Shown here one piece after another: positions 1 to 10,258 of a DNA stretch of 10,258 bases (within the stretch, counting starts at the first letter, position 1; every line of letters starts with the position of its first letter). The DNA lies in the NCBI GenBank assembly GCA_016841005.1, contig JAEORG010000206.1, positions 1 through 10,258 on the forward strand. Reading direction: 5' to 3'. Under the pieces are notes generated by a model that worked only from the letters and a program-made list of their open reading frames with translations, was not told where the DNA came from and made no database searches. This stretch comes from Candidatus Thorarchaeota archaeon (GTDB taxonomy: Archaea > Asgardarchaeota > Thorarchaeia > Thorarchaeales > Thorarchaeaceae). The translations under genes were made by a program, and so were the position numbers.

Positions 1-1164
1 ATGGATACTATAGGAGTTTTGTGACTCTCTTGCGACAATCAAAGCGTCTGTATAATTTCGAAGTGTATGAATAATATTCCCCTTCAGATTCTTCTTCAAA
101 TACATCCATGCATTGTTAGAGATTAATAGAACATCGATTTGCTTCAACACAGGCTCTAGATGCTTGAGACCTCTTTCAAGGAATGGTACCGAACAGCGAT
201 ATACAATAGGAATGGAGTTACTCCTTGCAAATGCACTTATTGTGGAGGCAACTTCAGTAAAGACTTCCCCAAGATAGACCACTCGCGTTTTTTCAAACTT
301 CGACCATGGTACTTGAGAAGGTGTAGTAATCGATAGCGCGGATGCTGTACCAACCCCAATCAGAGTTCTTGACCCTTTTTGATCATTTATCAAAACAGTT
401 TCATTAGTGACCTTTCCATCCTCGACTGATATATTCGTTACATCAACTTCCTTCTGAATCAAATTGGAGATTAGGTTCCATCCGTCTTGATTGTTACCAA
501 CCGTGGACACAAATGTAACTGATTTACCACGTTCTGCAAGAGTTTTAGATAGACTGATACTAGGTCCTCCAGGATATCGTACAGGAATGTCGCAACTTAT
601 GCTACTATTCGGATTAGGCAACTTAGTACAGGATATTTTAGTGTAATATGCAGAAGCTCCAAAAATCAAGAAGTCAGGTTTCACATATTCTTTTGAGCTG
701 CTACGCATGGCATTTGCCTGAGCTTTGGTAAATATGTCTTGAAGAGAGGAGCTGGATATCTCGAGATCCCGAAATAAAGACACAATATGAGTCAAGTAAT
801 CCTCTAGAAGGTATGAGGTCAGTTCGCGCACATCGGACGGTAAACCCTCAAAGAAAATCCTAGCGAAACTCCATCCTGTCTTGGTCAGCTCATGAATAAC
901 TACTCGTTTACCTTCGTGTATAGCGCTACTACTGGTCACCAATCCAGCATTCTTTAAAGCTGAAAGATAAGCCAAAATACTCTTGTTTGAGTGGGGCAAC
1001 TTCTCCACAAGATCTCTCTGAAGGACTTTTCCGTCTTTGTCAAAACTTGAGAGTATTGGTGCAGCAACTTTAGGCGCGAGAATAGTTTTGATGAATGCTT
1101 GTTTTTTGGTTAAATCGTGTGGAAGAAGGACAAGATAAGGAAGGAAACGTGATTTTGACAGCAT
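1..1164 (-). CDS. HTH-PfkB fusion: winged-helix domain plus ribokinase-like domain (partial, 3' end outside window)
   Basis: The minus-strand frame is open from ATG at 1164 to the left edge (388 codons, no stop). A perfect SD (GGAGGT, 1172-1177) sits 7 bases before the ATG and decides the start. Residues about 30-105 look like a winged helix-turn-helix: an 'LPHSNKSILAYLSALKNAGLV' type recognition pattern followed by a wing. A helical linker follows. From about residue 164 a PfkB/ribokinase fold begins, with the strand 'DFLIFGAS', the 'PGGP' loop at 198-201 and 'STVGNNQDG' at 220-228. The C-terminal third, which would carry the ATP-site GAGD motif and catalytic Asp, lies outside the window, so activity cannot be judged. 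The Asn usual after the GG pair in this family appears to be replaced by Ser, which may favour sensing over catalysis. HTH-kinase fusions are known in other settings (E. coli YeiI; archaeal RbkR has an unrelated kinase). Divergence from the membrane gene at 1269 suggests local regulation. The domain calls are firm; the ligand is unknown. Confidence 0.85.
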   Translation of the reverse strand, partial: MLSKSRFLPYLVLLPHDLTKKQAFIKTILAPKVAAPILSSFDKDGKVLQRDLVEKLPHSNKSILAYLSALKNAGLVTSSSAIHEGKRVVIHELTKTGWSFARIFFEGLPSDVRELTSYLLEDYLTHIVSLFRDLEISSSSLQDIFTKAQANAMRSSSKEYVKPDFLIFGASAYYTKISCTKLPNPNSSISCDIPVRYPGGPSISLSKTLAERGKSVTFVSTVGNNQDGWNLISNLIQKEVDVTNISVEDGKVTNETVLINDQKGSRTLIGVGTASALSITTPSQVPWSKFEKTRVVYLGEVFTEVASTISAFARSNSIPIVYRCSVPFLERGLKHLEPVLKQIDVLLISNNAWMYLKKNLKGNIIHTLRNYTDALIVARESQNSYSIH

Positions 1165-1171
1165 ATCTATT

Positions 1172-1195
1172 ACCTCCAGTATCTTCAAATACTGG
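1172..1195 (-). promoter_or_regulatory. Perfect 7-bp inverted repeat overlapping the SD of the HTH-PfkB gene
   Basis: The arms are CCAGTAT (1176-1182) and ATACTGG (1189-1195) around a 6-base spacer. On the minus-strand transcript the second arm runs into the GGAGGT ribosome site (1177-1172), so two G residues of the SD would be paired in the hairpin. It could be an RNA hairpin masking the ribosome site or a DNA operator used for autoregulation. The repeat is directly visible; the role is inferred. Confidence 0.5.
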
Positions 1196-2249: not shown

Positions 2250-3083
2250 TTGCAATTAGAAGCATTTTGGTTTGGAATGACGTTCCTATTGATAGTAATC
2301 GCCTTCTTTGCGTTGATGTTCATCGCAAGTGGTATCAAAGTATTGAAGGAGTGGGAGCGAGTAGCCATTCTACGTCTCGGTAAATTCAAACATATCCGAG
2401 GCCCTGGGATAATTTGGGTAACACCATTTCTTGACAAAGTAGCAATGAAGGTGTCCCTTAGGCTTCTTACTTACGCGTTTAAGACCGAGCGTTCATTGAC
2501 GAAGGATAATGTCCCGGTAGTTGTTGATGCTGTAATGTATTTCCGCGTCATAGATGTTGAGAAAGCAATTCTTAGCGTGGAAAGATACACTGTTGCAGTG
2601 GAACTAGCTGCTCAGACTACACTCAGAGAGACCACTGGTAAGGTGACTCTAGATGAACTGTTATCAGATAGAGATAGAATCGCTACACATCTACAGGAAC
2701 TGATTGATGAGAAGACAGAACATTGGGGTGTAAAAGTCACCGCTGTCGAAATACGAGATGTTGTGATTCCTACTCAATTACAGGATGCAATGAGTAGAGA
2801 AGCTCAGGCAGAACGTGAACGCCGTGCAAGAGTCACTCTTGCTCAAGCAGAACTTGAAGCTTCTCAGTCGATGCTTAAGGCAGCTCAGACATATGAGCAA
2901 TCACCTGCAGGAATGACACTACGAACTTGGAATATTATGCAGGAAATTAGTAAGAATGCTAACTTAATCATCATGGTACCGACTAATATTCCAGAGGTAG
3001 GTACATCCGGTGGTATAGCAGCAGCACTGTCAGCGGGTACAAGTGGATTGAAGGTCCCTAAGAATAAGGGAACTGATACCTAA
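2250..3083 (+). CDS. Slipin/stomatin-family SPFH (band 7) membrane protein
   Basis: 277 residues. One N-terminal membrane segment (about 6-28) is followed by an SPFH/PHB domain (about 30-180) with the hallmark 'EWERVAILRLGKF', 'RGPG' (50-53), 'TPFLDKV', 'TKDNVPVVVDAV', 'AQTTLRE', 'LLSDRD' and 'WGVKVTAVEIRDV' stretches. A coiled coil 'AQAERERRARV' (from about residue 186) and a hydrophobic C-terminal segment end the protein. Length matches archaeal slipins such as Pyrococcus PH1511 (about 266 residues). These proteins oligomerise on the membrane and organise microdomains, usually with an NfeD partner, which here lies immediately downstream in the same operon. The start is taken as TTG 2250, 10 bases after GGAG (2236-2239). 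An in-frame ATG at 2277 has no SD and would cut into the membrane segment. Family call very secure. Confidence 0.93.
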   Translation: MQLEAFWFGMTFLLIVIAFFALMFIASGIKVLKEWERVAILRLGKFKHIRGPGIIWVTPFLDKVAMKVSLRLLTYAFKTERSLTKDNVPVVVDAVMYFRVIDVEKAILSVERYTVAVELAAQTTLRETTGKVTLDELLSDRDRIATHLQELIDEKTEHWGVKVTAVEIRDVVIPTQLQDAMSREAQAERERRARVTLAQAELEASQSMLKAAQTYEQSPAGMTLRTWNIMQEISKNANLIIMVPTNIPEVGTSGGIAAALSAGTSGLKVPKNKGTDT

Positions 3084-3104
3084 TCCCAATTGTCGAATAA
3101 AACA

Positions 3105-3120
3105 GGAGGTAAAGAATATA
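3105..3120 (+). promoter_or_regulatory. Strong SD of the NfeD gene pointing to an AUA start
   Basis: GGAGG (3105-3109) is followed after 8 bases by ATA (3118-3120) in frame with the NfeD-like gene. The first in-frame ATG (3148) is 38 bases away and has no SD of its own. No in-frame ATG, GTG or TTG lies between. The strong site so close behind the slipin stop argues for initiation at about 3118. Confidence 0.5.
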
Positions 3121-3819
3121 GACGCTTGGATCAAAATCCTCGTCGTCATGGTACTTATGTCAGCATTGAGTCTAGTGCTCGGAATGATTGTGTTCAATCC
3201 TTTCTATGGACTGATTCTTGTTGGCATAATCCTAACCCTAATGGTATTGACTGTAGATCCAGCAACAGGTAAAGCTATGGCACAGGTCACAATCCCAATT
3301 GTGATTATTCTGTTCGTCTTCGAGATGATTCTCTTTGGCACAGATTTTGTGTTTGATCCTCTGATGATATTTGTTGTTGGAGCTATCCTCTACATGATGT
3401 TCGCTATGTTCACAGGCGGAGGAGGCATTATAGAGGGAGGCTTTATTGATGCTAAGCTTTCATTGAAGCTATTTCCAATCTATGGAGTTGCTATAATCAT
3501 AGCATGGTTTCTTGACCCAACTGGACATATGCCTGTGTACATAATGGTAGGAACGATCTTTAGTCTGATGGGGCTATACATGGTTTTTCTAAGAAACTAT
3601 GACAAATGGCCTCAATATGAATATGGCAAGATGCGTGACATTATTGCAATAACAGACATCAATCCTAAGGGTAAGGTCAAGTCAGGCGCTGAAATATGGT
3701 GGGCAAAGACAACTGGTCCTCCGATTCCAGCTGGCGAAAGAGTGAGGGTATTAGGCCTCTCTGGAATGACCATGATAGTCGCCAAAGAGGTTGCAAGTGA
3801 ACTACCTTTTGAGCAATAA
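3118..3819 (+). CDS. NfeD-like membrane protein, partner of the slipin
   Basis: From the proposed AUA start the product is 233 residues; from the first ATG (3148) it is 223. The N-terminal two thirds hold about five or six hydrophobic segments. The last 60 or so residues form an NfeD C-terminal OB-fold with the family pattern 'DINPKGKVKSGAEIWWA', 'IPAGERVRVLGLSGMTM' and 'VAKEV'. There is no N-terminal ClpP-like serine protease domain, so this belongs with the short NfeD forms rather than the protease form such as PH1510. It follows the slipin gene by 34 bases (64 from the ATG), the standard slipin-NfeD order, and should act with it in membrane organisation. The choice of 3118 rests on SD spacing and on the extra residues (DAWIKILVV) leading smoothly into the first membrane helix. 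The alternative is ATG 3148 with weak initiation. Confidence 0.85.
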   Translation: MDAWIKILVVMVLMSALSLVLGMIVFNPFYGLILVGIILTLMVLTVDPATGKAMAQVTIPIVIILFVFEMILFGTDFVFDPLMIFVVGAILYMMFAMFTGGGGIIEGGFIDAKLSLKLFPIYGVAIIIAWFLDPTGHMPVYIMVGTIFSLMGLYMVFLRNYDKWPQYEYGKMRDIIAITDINPKGKVKSGAEIWWAKTTGPPIPAGERVRVLGLSGMTMIVAKEVASELPFEQ

Positions 3820-4953: not shown

Positions 4954-6147
4954 TTGTCTGAAACCCGAAGAATGTTGCTAGACTTCCAAACTGAAGAAGT
5001 TGGAAGAAAAGCTAGGTCAAGCCAAAAGATAAGAGATGCGCTTATCAAAGCAATTTCAGATACATCGGACATTGTACGACAGCGAGCGTTGATTGCGACT
5101 ATGGATTTGGCAGACCCAACAATAGTGAAAGACATTGTGAAAGCGTTAAAGGATGATGAAGAAGAAGTACGAATTACTGCTGCTGAAGTTTTGGCTTGGT
5201 ATCAACAACCTAGTACAATACCCAATTTCTTAGAAGGCCTTAAAGATCCCAGCACTTGGGTGAGATCACACTGCGCAAATGGCCTCTCAAAATTAATAAG
5301 CGGCCCAATTTGGGCAAGGTTATCAGAAATAAAAATAGATGAGATACTTTCTGATTTTCCTGAAAAGGATGAAGAACAAATCAGAGAATTCTTGATTGAT
5401 ATTAAAGTAAGGTCAGATCAGCTTGACAGATTCATGAGATGGCGAAAAGCAAACTTCGAAGTTGAAATTGATACAAGTATTATTGAGGAGATGGAATCAG
5501 GTCCGATAATTCTTGAAGGGGCGGAGGCTTCAGCTGCACCACTCTTACCAAAACCAACTGGCATTTCACAGGAGGTAGAGGAAATTCTATCTGAATTACC
5601 AGAAGAGATTCTAGCTACACTACCAGAAGAGGACCTAAAACGTCTTACACCCAGAACTGCCAGAGAATTAGTAGATTCACTATTAGGCTCACTAGCTGAT
5701 ACAAAAGAGAAAGAACCAAAGAAAAAGAAAGTACGAGTCAGAAAGGTAAAGAAAGTAAAGAAAACGAGTGGTCCAACAAAGGAAGAACTTCTTGAGCAAA
5801 TACCAGAGGAAGTGAAAGCGAGTCTACCAGAAGATGTATTGTCCGAACTCTCTGTTGAAGAACTAGAAGCAGTTGTTGCTTCAAGTTCAGAATCTGGCGC
5901 ATCTGTAATCGAGGAATCAGAAGAGGCAGACAAAGAATCTAGAAAAAAGGAAAAGAAATCAAAGAAAACCCTTTCTAAAGAAGAGGATGAGAGATTTAAT
6001 GCTCTATCAGATAAGTTCGGAGAGGACAAAGCAGAGATACTCATTAGTGTTCCAGAGGAGATGCTTTCTGGTATACCAGATGATCAGATTCAGGAAATGG
6101 ACTTGGATTCTTTGAAAGATTTAGCAGATGCATTGGAGCCAAGGTAG
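4954..6147 (+). CDS. HEAT-repeat protein with three LPEE-type C-terminal repeats
   Basis: 397 residues. The start is TTG 4954, 9 bases after GGAG in a long SD (GGAGTGATC); an ATG at residue 7 is poorly placed. Residues about 25-117 form three HEAT-like helical units, each with a D-x-x-x-x-V-R turn ('DTSDIVR', 'DDEEEVR', 'DPSTWVR'), a common protein-binding scaffold. A helical middle part contains 'EILSDFPEKDEE', which looks like a half copy of the later repeats. Three repeats of about 35 residues follow (from about 210, 278 and 361), each with two Pro-centred acidic turns (LPEE then LPE/D-D). They are separated by a very basic linker (about 250-272) and an acidic/Lys-rich linker (about 310-345). 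No signal peptide or membrane segment is seen, so it is probably cytosolic. I know no named family with this layout. It converges on the CDC48-N/VWA gene with a 4-base gap, which may point to a shared pathway. Confidence 0.8.
   Translation: MSETRRMLLDFQTEEVGRKARSSQKIRDALIKAISDTSDIVRQRALIATMDLADPTIVKDIVKALKDDEEEVRITAAEVLAWYQQPSTIPNFLEGLKDPSTWVRSHCANGLSKLISGPIWARLSEIKIDEILSDFPEKDEEQIREFLIDIKVRSDQLDRFMRWRKANFEVEIDTSIIEEMESGPIILEGAEASAAPLLPKPTGISQEVEEILSELPEEILATLPEEDLKRLTPRTARELVDSLLGSLADTKEKEPKKKKVRVRKVKKVKKTSGPTKEELLEQIPEEVKASLPEDVLSELSVEELEAVVASSSESGASVIEESEEADKESRKKEKKSKKTLSKEEDERFNALSDKFGEDKAEILISVPEEMLSGIPDDQIQEMDLDSLKDLADALEPR
5581..6138 (+). other. Three coding copies of an LPEE-type repeat
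   Basis: Copies lie at about 5581-5688, 5785-5889 and 6034-6138 within the HEAT-repeat gene. Shared pattern: E-[IL]-L-x-x-[LIV]-P-E-E-[IVM]-x-[AS]-x-[LI]-P-[ED]-[ED] followed by a Leu-rich helix. The DNA of the copies is diverged, so these are old protein repeats and not recent duplications. Confidence 0.6.
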
Positions 6148-6151
6148 ATTC

Positions 6152-7441
6152 CTACTCGGCTCCACGAATTACAATAGCGAATTCACTTGCTAAACGACCG
6201 TACCATTCCAATAAATCTCGCATATTATCGACATGTCTGTATGTACCATTTCCATATTGGGATAGGGCAAGCATCAATTCTTCATCCAACTCACTTCGTT
6301 CCCCTAAACCAATACAATACATCACAAAGCTACTTCTCGATGGAAATCTTTCTTTCATTACTTTCAGTGGAGGAGGACCTGCGGTAGTCATACCATCAGT
6401 CAGAAGTATAAGCATGGTTGGCTTTGAGGGGTCTCCGAAAGCTTCTAGAACATCAGCTGCTCTTCCGAGCGCATTTCCCATATTTGTAAGTGTTCCACCT
6501 TCCTCAACTTTGTCAACAACGTGAGTACTGATTATTTGAAGCCCAAGAGCCTTTTCACGTCCTGTGCACTCAACAAACGGTTGAACTTCTCCAGTGTCTG
6601 CATTTAAGAAAGTCATCTCAGAAACTTCTTTCTCAAAGGTGATAACACCAACTTTCTCTCCGTAACCTCGTCCGACTTTTTCAGCGAGGTAAAGGAGAAC
6701 TGCCATAGCAGCAGCTTCACCTCGAGAAACATTTCGGCCCTCTTCAAATCTATCTAGGAATGCTTGGACTTCAGGATTATCTCCTGCAAGATCCTTCAAA
6801 CCCTCACGAGCGTGAGCTATGTCTTGAACTGGAACATCATTGGTTTTCATAGATCCACTTGTATCAATGCAAAGAATTGCATTGAATGGAGATGCAATTC
6901 CAACGGTCTTGAATTGATAGCCTGTTCGCTCCTTAAGGGCTTCAAATGCAAGTTTCGCAAAACTCTTTCCAGTCAAACTCGGACGTGTGTTCATAATCTC
7001 GACTTTTACATCAAGTTCCGGCCAATTGAAAGACATTCCTGGATATACCAGCCGACCTCCAATAAGAGATTCTAGAGATTCAACCATTTCAGCGGCTCGA
7101 GTTACGAGGTCCTCAGTATTGGCATCCTCAGATAGAGGTTTTAACCCAAATTCAACATAATCCAAAGCAATCATATCTCTATCATAGAGTGTGACCTCAA
7201 CAGAGTCACTCTCCATTAGAAGTGATGCCTCTAGTACAAGTGTATCAACATAGATTTCATTTTCGGGTACATCTTCACTCTTTCGTATTTCAGCTGCTCC
7301 CCAAAAACTACTATTTGGATCCTCAAAAATTACGATAGAGCCAATCTCTGCTTCAATACGCTCTGCTGTCTTTGGGTGAAGTGTGGCGTATCCACGAAGA
7401 TCCCCACCATCTACGATTTCAAGGGTCAGGTTATCGACGAT
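6152..7441 (-). CDS. CDC48-type N-domain fused to a von Willebrand factor A (VWA) domain
   Basis: Read from about 7441 the product is 429 residues; the first ATG (7216) is residue 76 and would cut through a domain. Residues about 5-100 resemble the double-psi barrel of CDC48/p97/VAT: 'GGDLRGYATLHPKTAERI', then 'GSIVIFED', 'VDTLVLEASLL' and 'DSVEVTLYD'. The second half of the N-domain follows ('GGRLVYPGMSFNW', 'VKVEIMNTRP', about 128-154). A VWA domain then starts at 'FNAILCIDTSGSM'. The metal-ion (MIDAS) residues are all visible: D193-x-S195-x-S197, T319 and D349 in 'LLTDG', with an extra helical insert after the first motif. No AAA+ ATPase part exists. CDC48 N-domains bind adaptors and substrates; VWA domains bind partners through Mg2+ and often work with MoxR/AAA+ machines. 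Cytosolic. It converges on the HEAT/LPEE-repeat gene and has its own promoter downstream of the amidohydrolase gene. Domain calls are good; the pathway is unknown. Confidence 0.85.
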   Translation of the reverse strand: MVDNLTLEIVDGGDLRGYATLHPKTAERIEAEIGSIVIFEDPNSSFWGAAEIRKSEDVPENEIYVDTLVLEASLLMESDSVEVTLYDRDMIALDYVEFGLKPLSEDANTEDLVTRAAEMVESLESLIGGRLVYPGMSFNWPELDVKVEIMNTRPSLTGKSFAKLAFEALKERTGYQFKTVGIASPFNAILCIDTSGSMKTNDVPVQDIAHAREGLKDLAGDNPEVQAFLDRFEEGRNVSRGEAAAMAVLLYLAEKVGRGYGEKVGVITFEKEVSEMTFLNADTGEVQPFVECTGREKALGLQIISTHVVDKVEEGGTLTNMGNALGRAADVLEAFGDPSKPTMLILLTDGMTTAGPPPLKVMKERFPSRSSFVMYCIGLGERSELDEELMLALSQYGNGTYRHVDNMRDLLEWYGRLASEFAIVIRGAE

Positions 7442-7449
7442 ATTAGTAG

Positions 7450-7495
7450 CCTCCGTTACTCCTTGTGTTAATCTTCTTCTCTTAAAGATATAAAG
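7450..7495 (-). promoter_or_regulatory. Promoter and ribosome site deciding the start of the CDC48-N/VWA gene
   Basis: On the minus strand, TTTATATC (7495-7488) is a good TATA box predicting transcription from about 7465. GGAGG (7454-7450) follows, and ATC (7441-7439) lies 8 bases after it. The frame upstream of 7441 is open back to 7510 but falls inside this promoter, so those codons are probably not translated. No in-frame ATG, GTG or TTG exists between the promoter and 7216. Confidence 0.6.
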
Positions 7496-7513
7496 GATAG
7501 TACATCCTACTTA

Positions 7514-9031
7514 CTACTTGAAGAGACGAGGAATACTCTCTACAAGAGATTTTGCATCCCGTTCATGACGTGTATTTCTCGTTAATTCTTCAATTAGACG
7601 CTCCCCTATCTTATGCGTTGCGTATTCGACAGTGACTAATGAATCCTCACCACTGGTGCCCAAAGATGCAAGTGTTAAGTAATCACCAGGAATATTGCGC
7701 AACCATAGATGCAATTCATATTCAACTTCCCTGGATGAGAGGGTAGCAATAACTGAATCATTATATACACCATTAAAGCCACCTTCCTTTTCAGAAACTG
7801 GTTCAGGCCAAGTTTGATGAGGTGGTAGCATTGGGTCGAGAGAAGCGAGTTCCCAACCATTCTTGTGTAGGAGAGAGATGATTCCCTCCTCCACAGTAAT
7901 CCGAGAATTTCCATTATCGCTAGGACAAGCAAGCTGCCGAGGATATCGTTTGGTTGTTCTAGCTGTTCCGAAGGGTCTTTGGGTTATCGAGAGTGCATTT
8001 CCGCCCAGAATTCTCTGGACATCACTTAATGTTCCTGGGAATTCTCGAGATAATGCGAACAAAATCAGTTCTGCAGCCTGAACAGATAGGAAACTGTAGT
8101 CAGTTCCAAAGATAAGACTCTCCGACCATCTTTTATCAGGCGTCTTGATTCGATTTACAGCCATATCAAAAAGAAGAGGAATGTCTTGATCATGAAGTGT
8201 TGAGGTATCTGCACTGAATGATGGATCTCTCAGGATGTCATATAATTTTGAATCACCAGGACTCATCCCACAATGAGCGATGATAATCTTCAATCCGCGC
8301 ATTGCCATTTGATATTGCTCATCCTCCCTCATCGAATCTACTAATTTCTTGATACGAATGGCAGTTCGCATGTTCCGTGTATCAAAAATGACAGGAATAG
8401 CTAGTTCTCCTGCCTTCTTCATAACACGTTTTGTGATATCATCTTCCAATTCATCAATGAATAATTGGGCAAGGGGGTGTAACTTAAGCCCTCTCAAACC
8501 GAGATGACGGATTGCTCGCTCTAACTCTCTGACTGCGATATCAGGGGGACCATGTTGTGCATCAGATGGGTCAACACGACCAAATCCAATGAGCCTTGAT
8601 GAATGAGGCGCGCGAGTGGTCCAACCAGCGATTTTATCATTGGATACTTTGAATGACGGTGATCCATCAGACCCTCGTTTAGAGTAGTCATCCGAATAAG
8701 GAAATACTATTGTTCTATCAACAAGCCATCCATGATCTAGCCGTTTCCAGCTCTTTCTGCTGTTGAAAATTCGTGAGGGAAAGGATGGTGCAATTATATC
8801 AATTGGTTCAAACAGAAGTTTTTCTTCTTCCATTGCACGTTGTACCAAACGTTTCATTTCAAACCATAAAAGCTGATAGAAGTCATATGCTCCACCTGGT
8901 GTGTTCTTATGGGTTTTTTCCTTTCCCATATGGTGATGAGCGTCTACAATATAGATGCGAAAGGTATCTCCCTGTTTTATTCGTTGTTTAGGTATATCCT
9001 CAAGTGCTCGCACGATGAGCATGACAATCAC
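7514..9031 (-). CDS. Amidohydrolase-2 family metal-dependent hydrolase with C-terminal extension
   Basis: 505 residues. The first 350 or so form an amidohydrolase-2 TIM barrel: strand-1 H-x-H (H32 and H34 in 'VDAHHHMG'), H185 in 'GLKLHPLAQ', H253 in 'IIIAHCG', D311 in 'FGTDYSF', and the closing 'ILGGNAL' helix. All ligands expected for a mono- or binuclear Zn-type centre are present, so it should be an active hydrolase or decarboxylase; the substrate cannot be told. The last 140 residues or so (after about 365) are an extra alpha/beta domain I do not recognise. The start is GTG 9031 or ATG 9022; neither has a strong SD, and a TATA-like box at 9061-9070 predicts transcription from about 9040, so the message may be nearly leaderless. 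It is divergent from a related but apparently inactive paralogue at 9170, and its stop lies 72 bases before the proposed VWA start. Confidence 0.85.
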   Translation of the reverse strand: MIVMLIVRALEDIPKQRIKQGDTFRIYIVDAHHHMGKEKTHKNTPGGAYDFYQLLWFEMKRLVQRAMEEEKLLFEPIDIIAPSFPSRIFNSRKSWKRLDHGWLVDRTIVFPYSDDYSKRGSDGSPSFKVSNDKIAGWTTRAPHSSRLIGFGRVDPSDAQHGPPDIAVRELERAIRHLGLRGLKLHPLAQLFIDELEDDITKRVMKKAGELAIPVIFDTRNMRTAIRIKKLVDSMREDEQYQMAMRGLKIIIAHCGMSPGDSKLYDILRDPSFSADTSTLHDQDIPLLFDMAVNRIKTPDKRWSESLIFGTDYSFLSVQAAELILFALSREFPGTLSDVQRILGGNALSITQRPFGTARTTKRYPRQLACPSDNGNSRITVEEGIISLLHKNGWELASLDPMLPPHQTWPEPVSEKEGGFNGVYNDSVIATLSSREVEYELHLWLRNIPGDYLTLASLGTSGEDSLVTVEYATHKIGERLIEELTRNTRHERDAKSLVESIPRLFK

Positions 9032-9169: not shown

Positions 9170-10258
9170 ATGATTGTTGTAGAGGACAAAGAAACAAACG
9201 AAGTCAAACAATTTTTACTCGTTGATGCCAGTACGAAATTAGGATTAGTACAATTAGGAACAAGCATTAGAGCATTTAATCCAGAGAGACTAATCCGTTT
9301 TTATGATTTGGTTGCCAATCAGTTGTTTGATTACTCTACACGTTACGCCACTTCGTTTAGGTTTCAACCTCGAAGGGCATATTCCTATTTATCTAAACCT
9401 CCTCTATTAGCAACTATCTATGAGAGTGTTCCAAGTACCACTGATAGCTCTTGGATTTGCGATCTCTTTCTTACGAATCCACTCCTTGAAATATCTGGAA
9501 AACCTTTGCCAAGATTTCAACAGAAGACGAACATTGATACTTCATACAGATGGGCTGCACAGTCTCAATATTCCTCTAGACTCTATAACGTAAGAGGTCT
9601 TCAAAGCGATTTTGAAACCCAACCAGGTTGGGGATGTAGATTGAACTCCAAGAATCTTAAGGGGGTGTTTAAAGGAAAACTCCGCGACACGTTGATATCC
9701 AGTATTGTGTCTAGAGACCCTATTTTCTTGAACATAGAACAAGAGCAGGATCTGGAACCTCTTCTTGAGTGGCTTGTTATAACAAAGGAAGCGAATTTAC
9801 CCCAACCTGAGCTAGTTCTTTCTGTTCCGTCATTCAAAGATAAGGAACAGGTAATCATGGCACTTCTTGAAATTCCGAGAACCAGATTACTGACATCAGG
9901 AGCTACAATAGGAACTCTTTCTTCGATTATTAACAATTTAAAGGCTCAAAAAGGAAAGATGCATTGGTCTGAAAAAATTGTGTTTGGTAGCTCATACCCT
10001 GAAACACAACTTGGAGATAGTGTTACTGAAATATTGAGTTTCGTATTAAGTCGGAATCTAGGTGCTACCAGTCAAGAGATACAGAGAATTCTTGGAGGTA
10101 ACATTTTGTCATTATTACCTCCTAGACCTCGATTCCAAAAGCTCAAGTCAAGTGAAGGTTCGGTTCATGCAGAAGGAAAACTCGGTGAAATCGCACTCAT
10201 GGAGATTTCTCGGCTCTTACGAGTGTTAGACGCACAAAAGCAACACAGAGTAGTATCA
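9170..10258 (+). CDS. Amidohydrolase-like protein lacking metal ligands, probable pseudoenzyme (partial, 3' end outside window)
   Basis: The plus-strand frame from ATG 9170 is open to the right edge (363 codons, no stop). Several landmarks match the divergent amidohydrolase: 'FLLVDASTKLG' (15-25) parallels its 'IVDAHHHMG', 'VFGSSYP' (271-277) parallels 'IFGTDYS', and 'IQRILGGNILSL' (304-315) parallels 'VQRILGGNALSI'. The H-x-H pair is replaced by S-x-K and the catalytic Asp by Ser275. The strand ending 'TRLLTSGATIG' has no His where the partner has 'AHCG'. The frame is long and free of stops, so it is a maintained protein and not a decaying gene. A regulatory or structural subunit for the active enzyme is an inference. 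SD is weak (GGTAGAG, 9155-9161); a short-leader message is possible. Homology to the neighbour is by eye only and should be tested. Confidence 0.75.
   Translation, partial: MIVVEDKETNEVKQFLLVDASTKLGLVQLGTSIRAFNPERLIRFYDLVANQLFDYSTRYATSFRFQPRRAYSYLSKPPLLATIYESVPSTTDSSWICDLFLTNPLLEISGKPLPRFQQKTNIDTSYRWAAQSQYSSRLYNVRGLQSDFETQPGWGCRLNSKNLKGVFKGKLRDTLISSIVSRDPIFLNIEQEQDLEPLLEWLVITKEANLPQPELVLSVPSFKDKEQVIMALLEIPRTRLLTSGATIGTLSSIINNLKAQKGKMHWSEKIVFGSSYPETQLGDSVTEILSFVLSRNLGATSQEIQRILGGNILSLLPPRPRFQKLKSSEGSVHAEGKLGEIALMEISRLLRVLDAQKQHRVVS

Follow-up and report, generated by a model that had tools for sequence, protein, structure and literature searches.

A motor-less CDC48-type N-domain joined to a VWA domain in Asgard archaea and its likeness to the N-terminal half of DEPDC5/Iml1

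CDC48-N domains recruit cofactors, and VWA proteins partner MoxR ATPases. Ufd1 is a motor-less, CDC48-N-like cofactor that binds ubiquitin and is not known to have a VWA domain. In DEPDC5, as described in a review (PMC8534245), an NTD that resembles a domain of Sec18/NSF is followed by a SABA domain that resembles a domain of Sec23. Here, we analyzed a stretch of 10,258 nucleotides from a Candidatus Thorarchaeota archaeon (contig JAEORG010000206.1, hereafter the window), which encodes a protein that we term CDC48N-VWA. The original prediction had seen in it a CDC48-type N-domain fused to a MIDAS-bearing VWA domain without a AAA+ motor, had regarded this architecture as undescribed, and had proposed a role as adaptor for a CDC48 or MoxR machine. 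The description of the protein stood up to our analysis; the novelty of its architecture did not in terms of fold, and the adaptor role received little backing.

The coding strand, which had not been given, is the minus strand, and its reading frame extends without interruption between position 7510 and the stop codon at 6152 (Table 1). The first in-frame ATG/GTG/TTG is ATG 7216, which falls inside the barrel and would cut it; as predicted, the barrel begins upstream of this codon, with 'DLRGYATLHPKTAERI' present, and the second half of the N-domain ('GGRLVYPGMSFNW...NTRP') is found in the translation. The Pfam scan of the protein gave a VWA_2 match (E 2.5e-9) and no AAA match, and the five MIDAS residues (DxSxS ... 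T ... D) are invariant in all 30 aligned homologues, in agreement with a complete VWA domain and the lack of a motor. Searches of Pfam, NCBIfam and the PDB with the single sequence found the VWA domain only, or nothing. We confirmed that the window protein consists of a CDC48-type N-domain and a VWA domain with an intact MIDAS, and that it is motor-less. Elsewhere, the window contains a gene for a PfkB-family kinase (1-1188, minus strand), with an N-terminal winged-helix-like stretch that scores below the cut-off, and an SPFH/Band 7 gene that precedes an NfeD-domain gene (2250-3819, plus strand).

Table 1. Features of the window around the CDC48N-VWA gene
Feature	Position	Strand	Remarks
HEAT-repeat protein	4954..6147	plus	convergent neighbor, conserved in Thorarchaeota
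CDC48N-VWA gene	6152..7441	minus	429 aa, ATC 7441-7439 to stop 6152-6154
VWA domain	6155..6892	minus	residues about 184-429
MIDAS motif DTSGS (D193, S195, S197)	6851..6865	minus	T319 and D349 complete the motif
Second N subdomain, CDC48_2-like by fold	6962..7171	minus	residues about 91-160
CDC48-N barrel	7172..7429	minus	residues about 5-90
Probable AUC start codon	7439..7441	minus	fixed distance from GGAGG
GGAGG Shine-Dalgarno	7450..7454	minus	8 nt before ATC
TATA-like TTTATAT, putative promoter element	7488..7494	minus	upstream of Shine-Dalgarno; leaders, column conservation
Amidohydrolase	7514..9031	minus	PF04909, 43.2 bits versus cut-off of 26.4; retains the motifs HxH, K, H and D
Divergent pseudo-amidohydrolase gene	9170..10258	plus	cut by window end

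We then evaluated the N-domain. As a single sequence, the window protein has no match to Pfam CDC48_N (PF02359) at E<=10. Among eight Asgard homologues scanned, one passed the CDC48_N cut-off (L119, with 35.7 versus 35.1 bits over positions 13-82 of the 85 in the model), L121 (32.2), L120 (19.0) and L105 (15.1) scored below it, and four had no match; the CDC48_2 HMM (PF02933) did not match the homologue in genome G001. In a PDB search with a profile of the family N-domain, the top match was VAT-N (1cz4; E 0.0012), which upheld the predicted similarity to CDC48-N at the profile level; the Thorarchaeal-only family profile found VWA-type chains only. The structure models resemble p97/CDC48-N in both subdomains by fold, as had been anticipated: Foldseek aligned N-domain-only p97/CDC48 chains with both models at an rmsd of 3.0-4.2 over 165-189 columns, and those aligned with model 2 (rmsd of 3.2-4.1 over 181-189 columns) reached a TMt of 0.51-0.75, with both subdomains covered. 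VIA-align lists for the models were filled by VWA chains and are silent on DEPDC5 or p97-N either way. Profile-profile links of the N-domain to CDC48-N varied with the alignment used. With hhalign, they amounted to 73% against a Thorarchaeal CDC48-N set and to 12.7% against a diverse, gappy and less clean set of 16 sequences (4.8% with its non-Thorarchaeal rows alone); with 68 family sequences, we obtained 57.8% over 141 columns and also 58.3%; the second value comes from just 44 columns, which lie outside the shared N-domain. Because these links are unstable, the CDC48-N assignment rests on the Pfam match in a homologue, the PDB profile match and the structure.

The start of the gene is unusual. 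Position 7441, where the original prediction had placed the end of the feature, belongs to an ATC codon that follows a GGAGG at a distance of exactly 8 nt, and the window has no in-frame ATG/GTG/TTG from the upstream stop down to ATG 7216. We compared 36 loci (35 of the 37 family loci, excluding L027, where the motif is absent, and the truncated L032, plus the window) and found GGAGG 8 nt before the putative start codon in all of them, with ATC at the start position in 30 cases, ATT in 3, ATA in 2 and ACC in 1. In the gene bodies, ATC represents 29.9% of 837 Ile codons, versus 30/35 at the start position (binomial 1e-11, kinship ignored), and the third base of the start-position codon has a constancy of 0.86, the highest among the degenerate codons listed. 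More distant members (P0109, P0118 and P0120) have Met at the start position itself. As counterevidence, 18 of the 36 loci contain an ATG/GTG/TTG 4-9 codons downstream, at which some database entries (such as P0003 and P0016) start, and L033 has an ATG just ahead of the start-position codon. Translation table 11 permits AUC as a start codon. Translation of CDC48N-VWA probably starts at the conserved AUC, and such initiation would probably hold the amount of protein down. We found no support for AUC as a common start in Thorarchaeota in 400 kb of one Thorarchaeal genome, where we surveyed 244 long frames, of which 57 carry a GGAGG close to the 5' end. The 72 codons located 6-9 nt downstream of GGAGG included ATG (14), TTG (7), ATT (4) and GTG (3) but neither ATC nor ATA, and in all 244 frames a canonical codon occurs no more than 60 codons from the stop. 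The open-access papers listed for unusual start codons included none on the subject. Among archaea, a conserved AUC start would be a rare example of start-codon control, and one that can be tested.

The same two-domain layout, which the original prediction had proposed to look for in archaeal genomes, is widespread among Asgard archaea: the family profile matched in 132/227 Asgard genomes at E<=0.1. Two protein sequence searches (182 and 152 matches) yielded, among the 120 matches listed for each, only relatives that are 64-92% identical; those named among the 120 listed of the 182 were Thorarchaeota, one Promethearchaeota and one Lokiarchaeota. One locus titled Lokiarchaeota (L036) has a copy 83% identical to that of the window and the Thorarchaeal gene order, and is perhaps a mislabeled bin. 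Many non-Thorarchaeal open frames of the family have 700-1019 residues. When read, the translations of long members (L105, L106, L108 and L112) showed one or two additional barrel-like repeats, together with Pro-rich linkers, on the N-terminal side of the common C-terminal CDC48N-VWA unit, while L117-L122 have a single barrel.

We then looked into the gene neighborhood. The amidohydrolase gene lies upstream of CDC48N-VWA on the same strand in all 24 Thorarchaeal loci examined (22 of the 37 family loci, the window and L124), and the metal motifs of the enzyme are invariant in 10/10 aligned sequences. Its nearest PDB match by profile has an E of 0.003, its single sequence has no match in the PDB, and the L105 copy scores below the Pfam cut-off. 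A GCS2-type amidoligase gene was found in 16/16 Thorarchaeal genomes, in 14 of them on the contig of the VWA gene and 8-10 kb away from it; the gene is not in the window and, on the window's own contig, would lie outside the window. The enzyme assignments of the amidohydrolase and the GCS2-type amidoligase are family-level.

The divergent gene at the window end belongs to a gene fusion that is complete in 21/24 Thorarchaeal loci (for example, L002:1658-4318 and L124:8840-11461). In the 12 relatives first examined, it encodes 872-892 aa and joins an amidohydrolase-like part to a CDC48N-VWA part; the CDC48N-VWA gene matches the C-terminal half of the fusion in 10/12 (E 1.9e-19 to 6.9e-5). The five MIDAS residues are kept in 0/21 fusion proteins and both His of HxH in 0/12 fusion N-termini, with one His kept in L007 and L035. 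By its motifs, the fusion is a doubly inactive paralogue, composed of a predicted dead amidohydrolase, a CDC48-N domain and a MIDAS-less VWA domain.

Outside Thorarchaeota, we evaluated 59 Asgard loci, several of them from the same genomes, counting genes within the fetched stretches. Of these loci, 22 have an amidohydrolase gene near CDC48N-VWA, 25 a GCS2-type gene and 19 both; Roadblock is found in 13, gelsolin-like genes in 17, actin in 7 and ACT/MazE-like genes in 7. In 21 loci, the fetched stretch, short in the case of some contigs, contains neither enzyme nor a Roadblock or gelsolin-like gene. Among the neighbors scanned, GCS2 and Robl_LC7 were each above their Pfam cut-off in 3/3 and ACT below it in 4/4; gelsolin was below it in the three with a match, and a fourth had no match. 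In L121, L151, L155, L156, L158, L105 and L123, the genes for the amidohydrolase, the GCS2-type amidoligase and CDC48N-VWA adjoin on one strand, and some of these loci have a filamin- or TRAPPC13-like gene (below the cut-off). In L108, L110, L111, L150 and L171, CDC48N-VWA lines up with genes for gelsolin-like, Roadblock, ACT/MazE-like, actin and CHAT-like proteins. As a triad that recurs in Asgard archaea, CDC48N-VWA, the amidohydrolase and the GCS2-type amidoligase resemble an uncharacterized enzyme system.

We then compared the protein with DEPDC5. Foldseek against the PDB placed GATOR1/DEPDC5 entries at ranks 1-6 for model 1 and 1-5 for model 2, the matches of model 2 having E values of 1.3e-12 to 1.2e-11 over 423-431 columns that span both domains; yeast Iml1 came at ranks 18 and 22 (model 2). 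The DEPDC5 chain is named for 9o5a_B, 8fw5_A and 8adl_W and was inferred from entry and length for 9v0j_C and 9o5e_H. Over the whole chain, the match to DEPDC5 has low TM-scores (0.31-0.36) and an rmsd of about 10-12, since each domain matches separately rather than the two as a rigid pair. In fold terms, the statement that no described family has this architecture is thus wrong, since the NTD-SABA half of DEPDC5 has the same domain order. At the profile level, hhalign linked the N-domain to the DEPDC5 NTD at 88% (30 sequences), 89% and 91% (68 sequences), with E values of 2.8e-6 to 1e-6 that are for a single comparison and uncorrected for database search, and the full alignment extended into the first VWA strand (67-78%). 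The full-length score against DEPDC5 was 44.5, versus at most 23.3 in 60 column shuffles, and 50.7 with 68 sequences, versus at most 30.4 in 100 column shuffles. DEPDC5 was the closest profile among those compared, and the DEPDC5 NTD itself reached only 3.8% and 2.3% against CDC48-N. The VWA-SABA link alone was undetected by sequence (hhalign, 2.0% and 0.2%). Pfam IML1 (PF12257) passed its cut-off in 0/227 Asgard genomes, and none of the IML1 places listed at E<=1 falls on a place listed for the family profile. The window protein ends with the VWA domain and has no SHEN, DEP or CTD part (translation and Pfam). Homology of the N-domain to the DEPDC5/Iml1 NTD is probable, and shared descent of the whole CDC48N-VWA pair with NTD-SABA is possible.

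We propose that CDC48N-VWA is the motor-less scaffold of an amide-bond-editing complex, from a family present in many Asgard archaea whose N-domain, and perhaps whole unit, is homologous to DEPDC5/Iml1 NTD-SABA; we give this proposal an even chance of being right. GCS2-type ligases act on a carboxylate. In the proposed complex, the amidoligase would make and the amidohydrolase would break amide bonds on a carboxylate substrate, with CDC48N-VWA as noncatalytic scaffold: its N-domain would dock peptide motifs or a partner enzyme, and the MIDAS metal would hold a carboxylate of a client or partner. In Thorarchaeota, the doubly inactive fusion paralogue may provide the other half of a heteromer. 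The fusion gene is evidence for association and not for mechanism, and as a counter-reading to the scaffold, the amidohydrolase could be a mere client in the same pathway.

The domain pair could also have arisen by chance recombination of two common folds, in which case the fusion would be independent and the resemblance to DEPDC5 convergent. The commonness of both folds, the absence of a VWA-SABA sequence link and the singly matching domains, with their low whole-chain TM-scores (0.31-0.36) and rmsd of about 10-12, suit this reading, but the family N-domain is closer to that of DEPDC5 (88-91%) than the latter is to that of CDC48 (2-4%), and the DEPDC5 alignment continues into the first VWA strand (67-78%). 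We regard convergence as rather unlikely. Equally tentative is an evolutionary extension of our scaffold proposal, that DEPDC5/Iml1 descends from an Asgard CDC48N-VWA scaffold of the amidoligase/amidohydrolase module, in some lineages already beside Roadblock, ACT-like and actin genes, which would give GATOR1 an archaeal root, with a working MIDAS that was later lost in eukaryotes. If the DEPDC5 link holds, an ancestor for a GATOR1 subunit is supplied and its origin becomes testable. In the open-access literature, which left most subscription papers outside its scope, we found no DEPDC5/Iml1 relative named in Asgard archaea; by the listings, it gave, for Asgard with GATOR1, only work on a bacterial Roadblock GAP and, for Asgard with Cdc48 and von Willebrand, only a review of posttranslational modification.

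The original suggestion, in which the protein serves the host's CDC48 or an AAA+ machine of the MoxR type as an adaptor or presenting subunit, seems to us quite improbable. The recruitment of cofactors by CDC48-N domains and the pairing of VWA proteins with MoxR count for it, as do a CDC48_2 match over the cut-off in all 119 Asgard genomes tested and, in one case, on contig C148 of genome G093, a CDC48 gene located some 7 kb away from a CDC48N-VWA paralogue. Yet neither MoxR nor CDC48 is among the Pfam-scanned neighbors, many neighbor ORFs being outside the scan, and the adaptor, decoy or presenting role found little support: the neighbors that recur are the two enzymes, amidohydrolase and GCS2-type amidoligase, joined in part of the other Asgard lineages by Roadblock, gelsolin-like and actin genes. 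Another reading is an archaeal precursor of a GATOR1 subunit, which would be DEPDC5-like, hold a longin/Roadblock-type partner and control a Rag-like GTPase. DEPDC5 is the best structural match and the closest profile of those compared, and Roadblock and an ACT/MazE-like small protein neighbor CDC48N-VWA in 13/59 and 7/59 non-Thorarchaeal loci. RagA-type GTPases are found at E<=1e-10 in all eight non-Thorarchaeal genomes tested, and a published Asgard list includes Gtr1/RagA and an NPRL2-like longin for a Lokiarchaeon (PMC9834061). In the lineage of the window, however, RagA-type GTPases are found in 0/3 Thorarchaeal genomes at the same threshold, the neighbors include enzymes, and Roadblock is present in 0/9 loci; moreover, the NPR2 model matched in 3/227 genomes at E<=0.001 and in none over the cut-off, and the SHEN, DEP and CTD parts are missing from the window protein. 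A GATOR-like function is thus unsupported in Thorarchaeota and fits some other Asgard loci better; taken as a whole, we consider it unlikely.

Compared with known systems, CDC48N-VWA shares both N-terminal subdomains (PF02359 and PF02933) with CDC48/p97/VAT by fold, but the CDC48 ATPase carries AAA domains and the window protein none, and CDC48_N lies below single-sequence Pfam detection in the window protein itself. VWA proteins with a MIDAS, such as the TFIIH VWA subunit, Rpn10, BatB and Cav alpha2-delta, have other partners and another domain context. By its description, Ufd1 shares the motor-less, N-domain-like fold but not the VWA domain. The NTD-SABA half of DEPDC5/Iml1 shares with the Asgard protein a CDC48/NSF-type N-domain followed by a VWA-type domain without a AAA motor; it differs in that the Asgard protein keeps the MIDAS, whereas in the alignments DEPDC5 reads QMSCE at the DxSxS place, and in that DEPDC5 continues with SHEN, DEP and CTD parts, without which the Asgard CDC48N-VWA unit stands.
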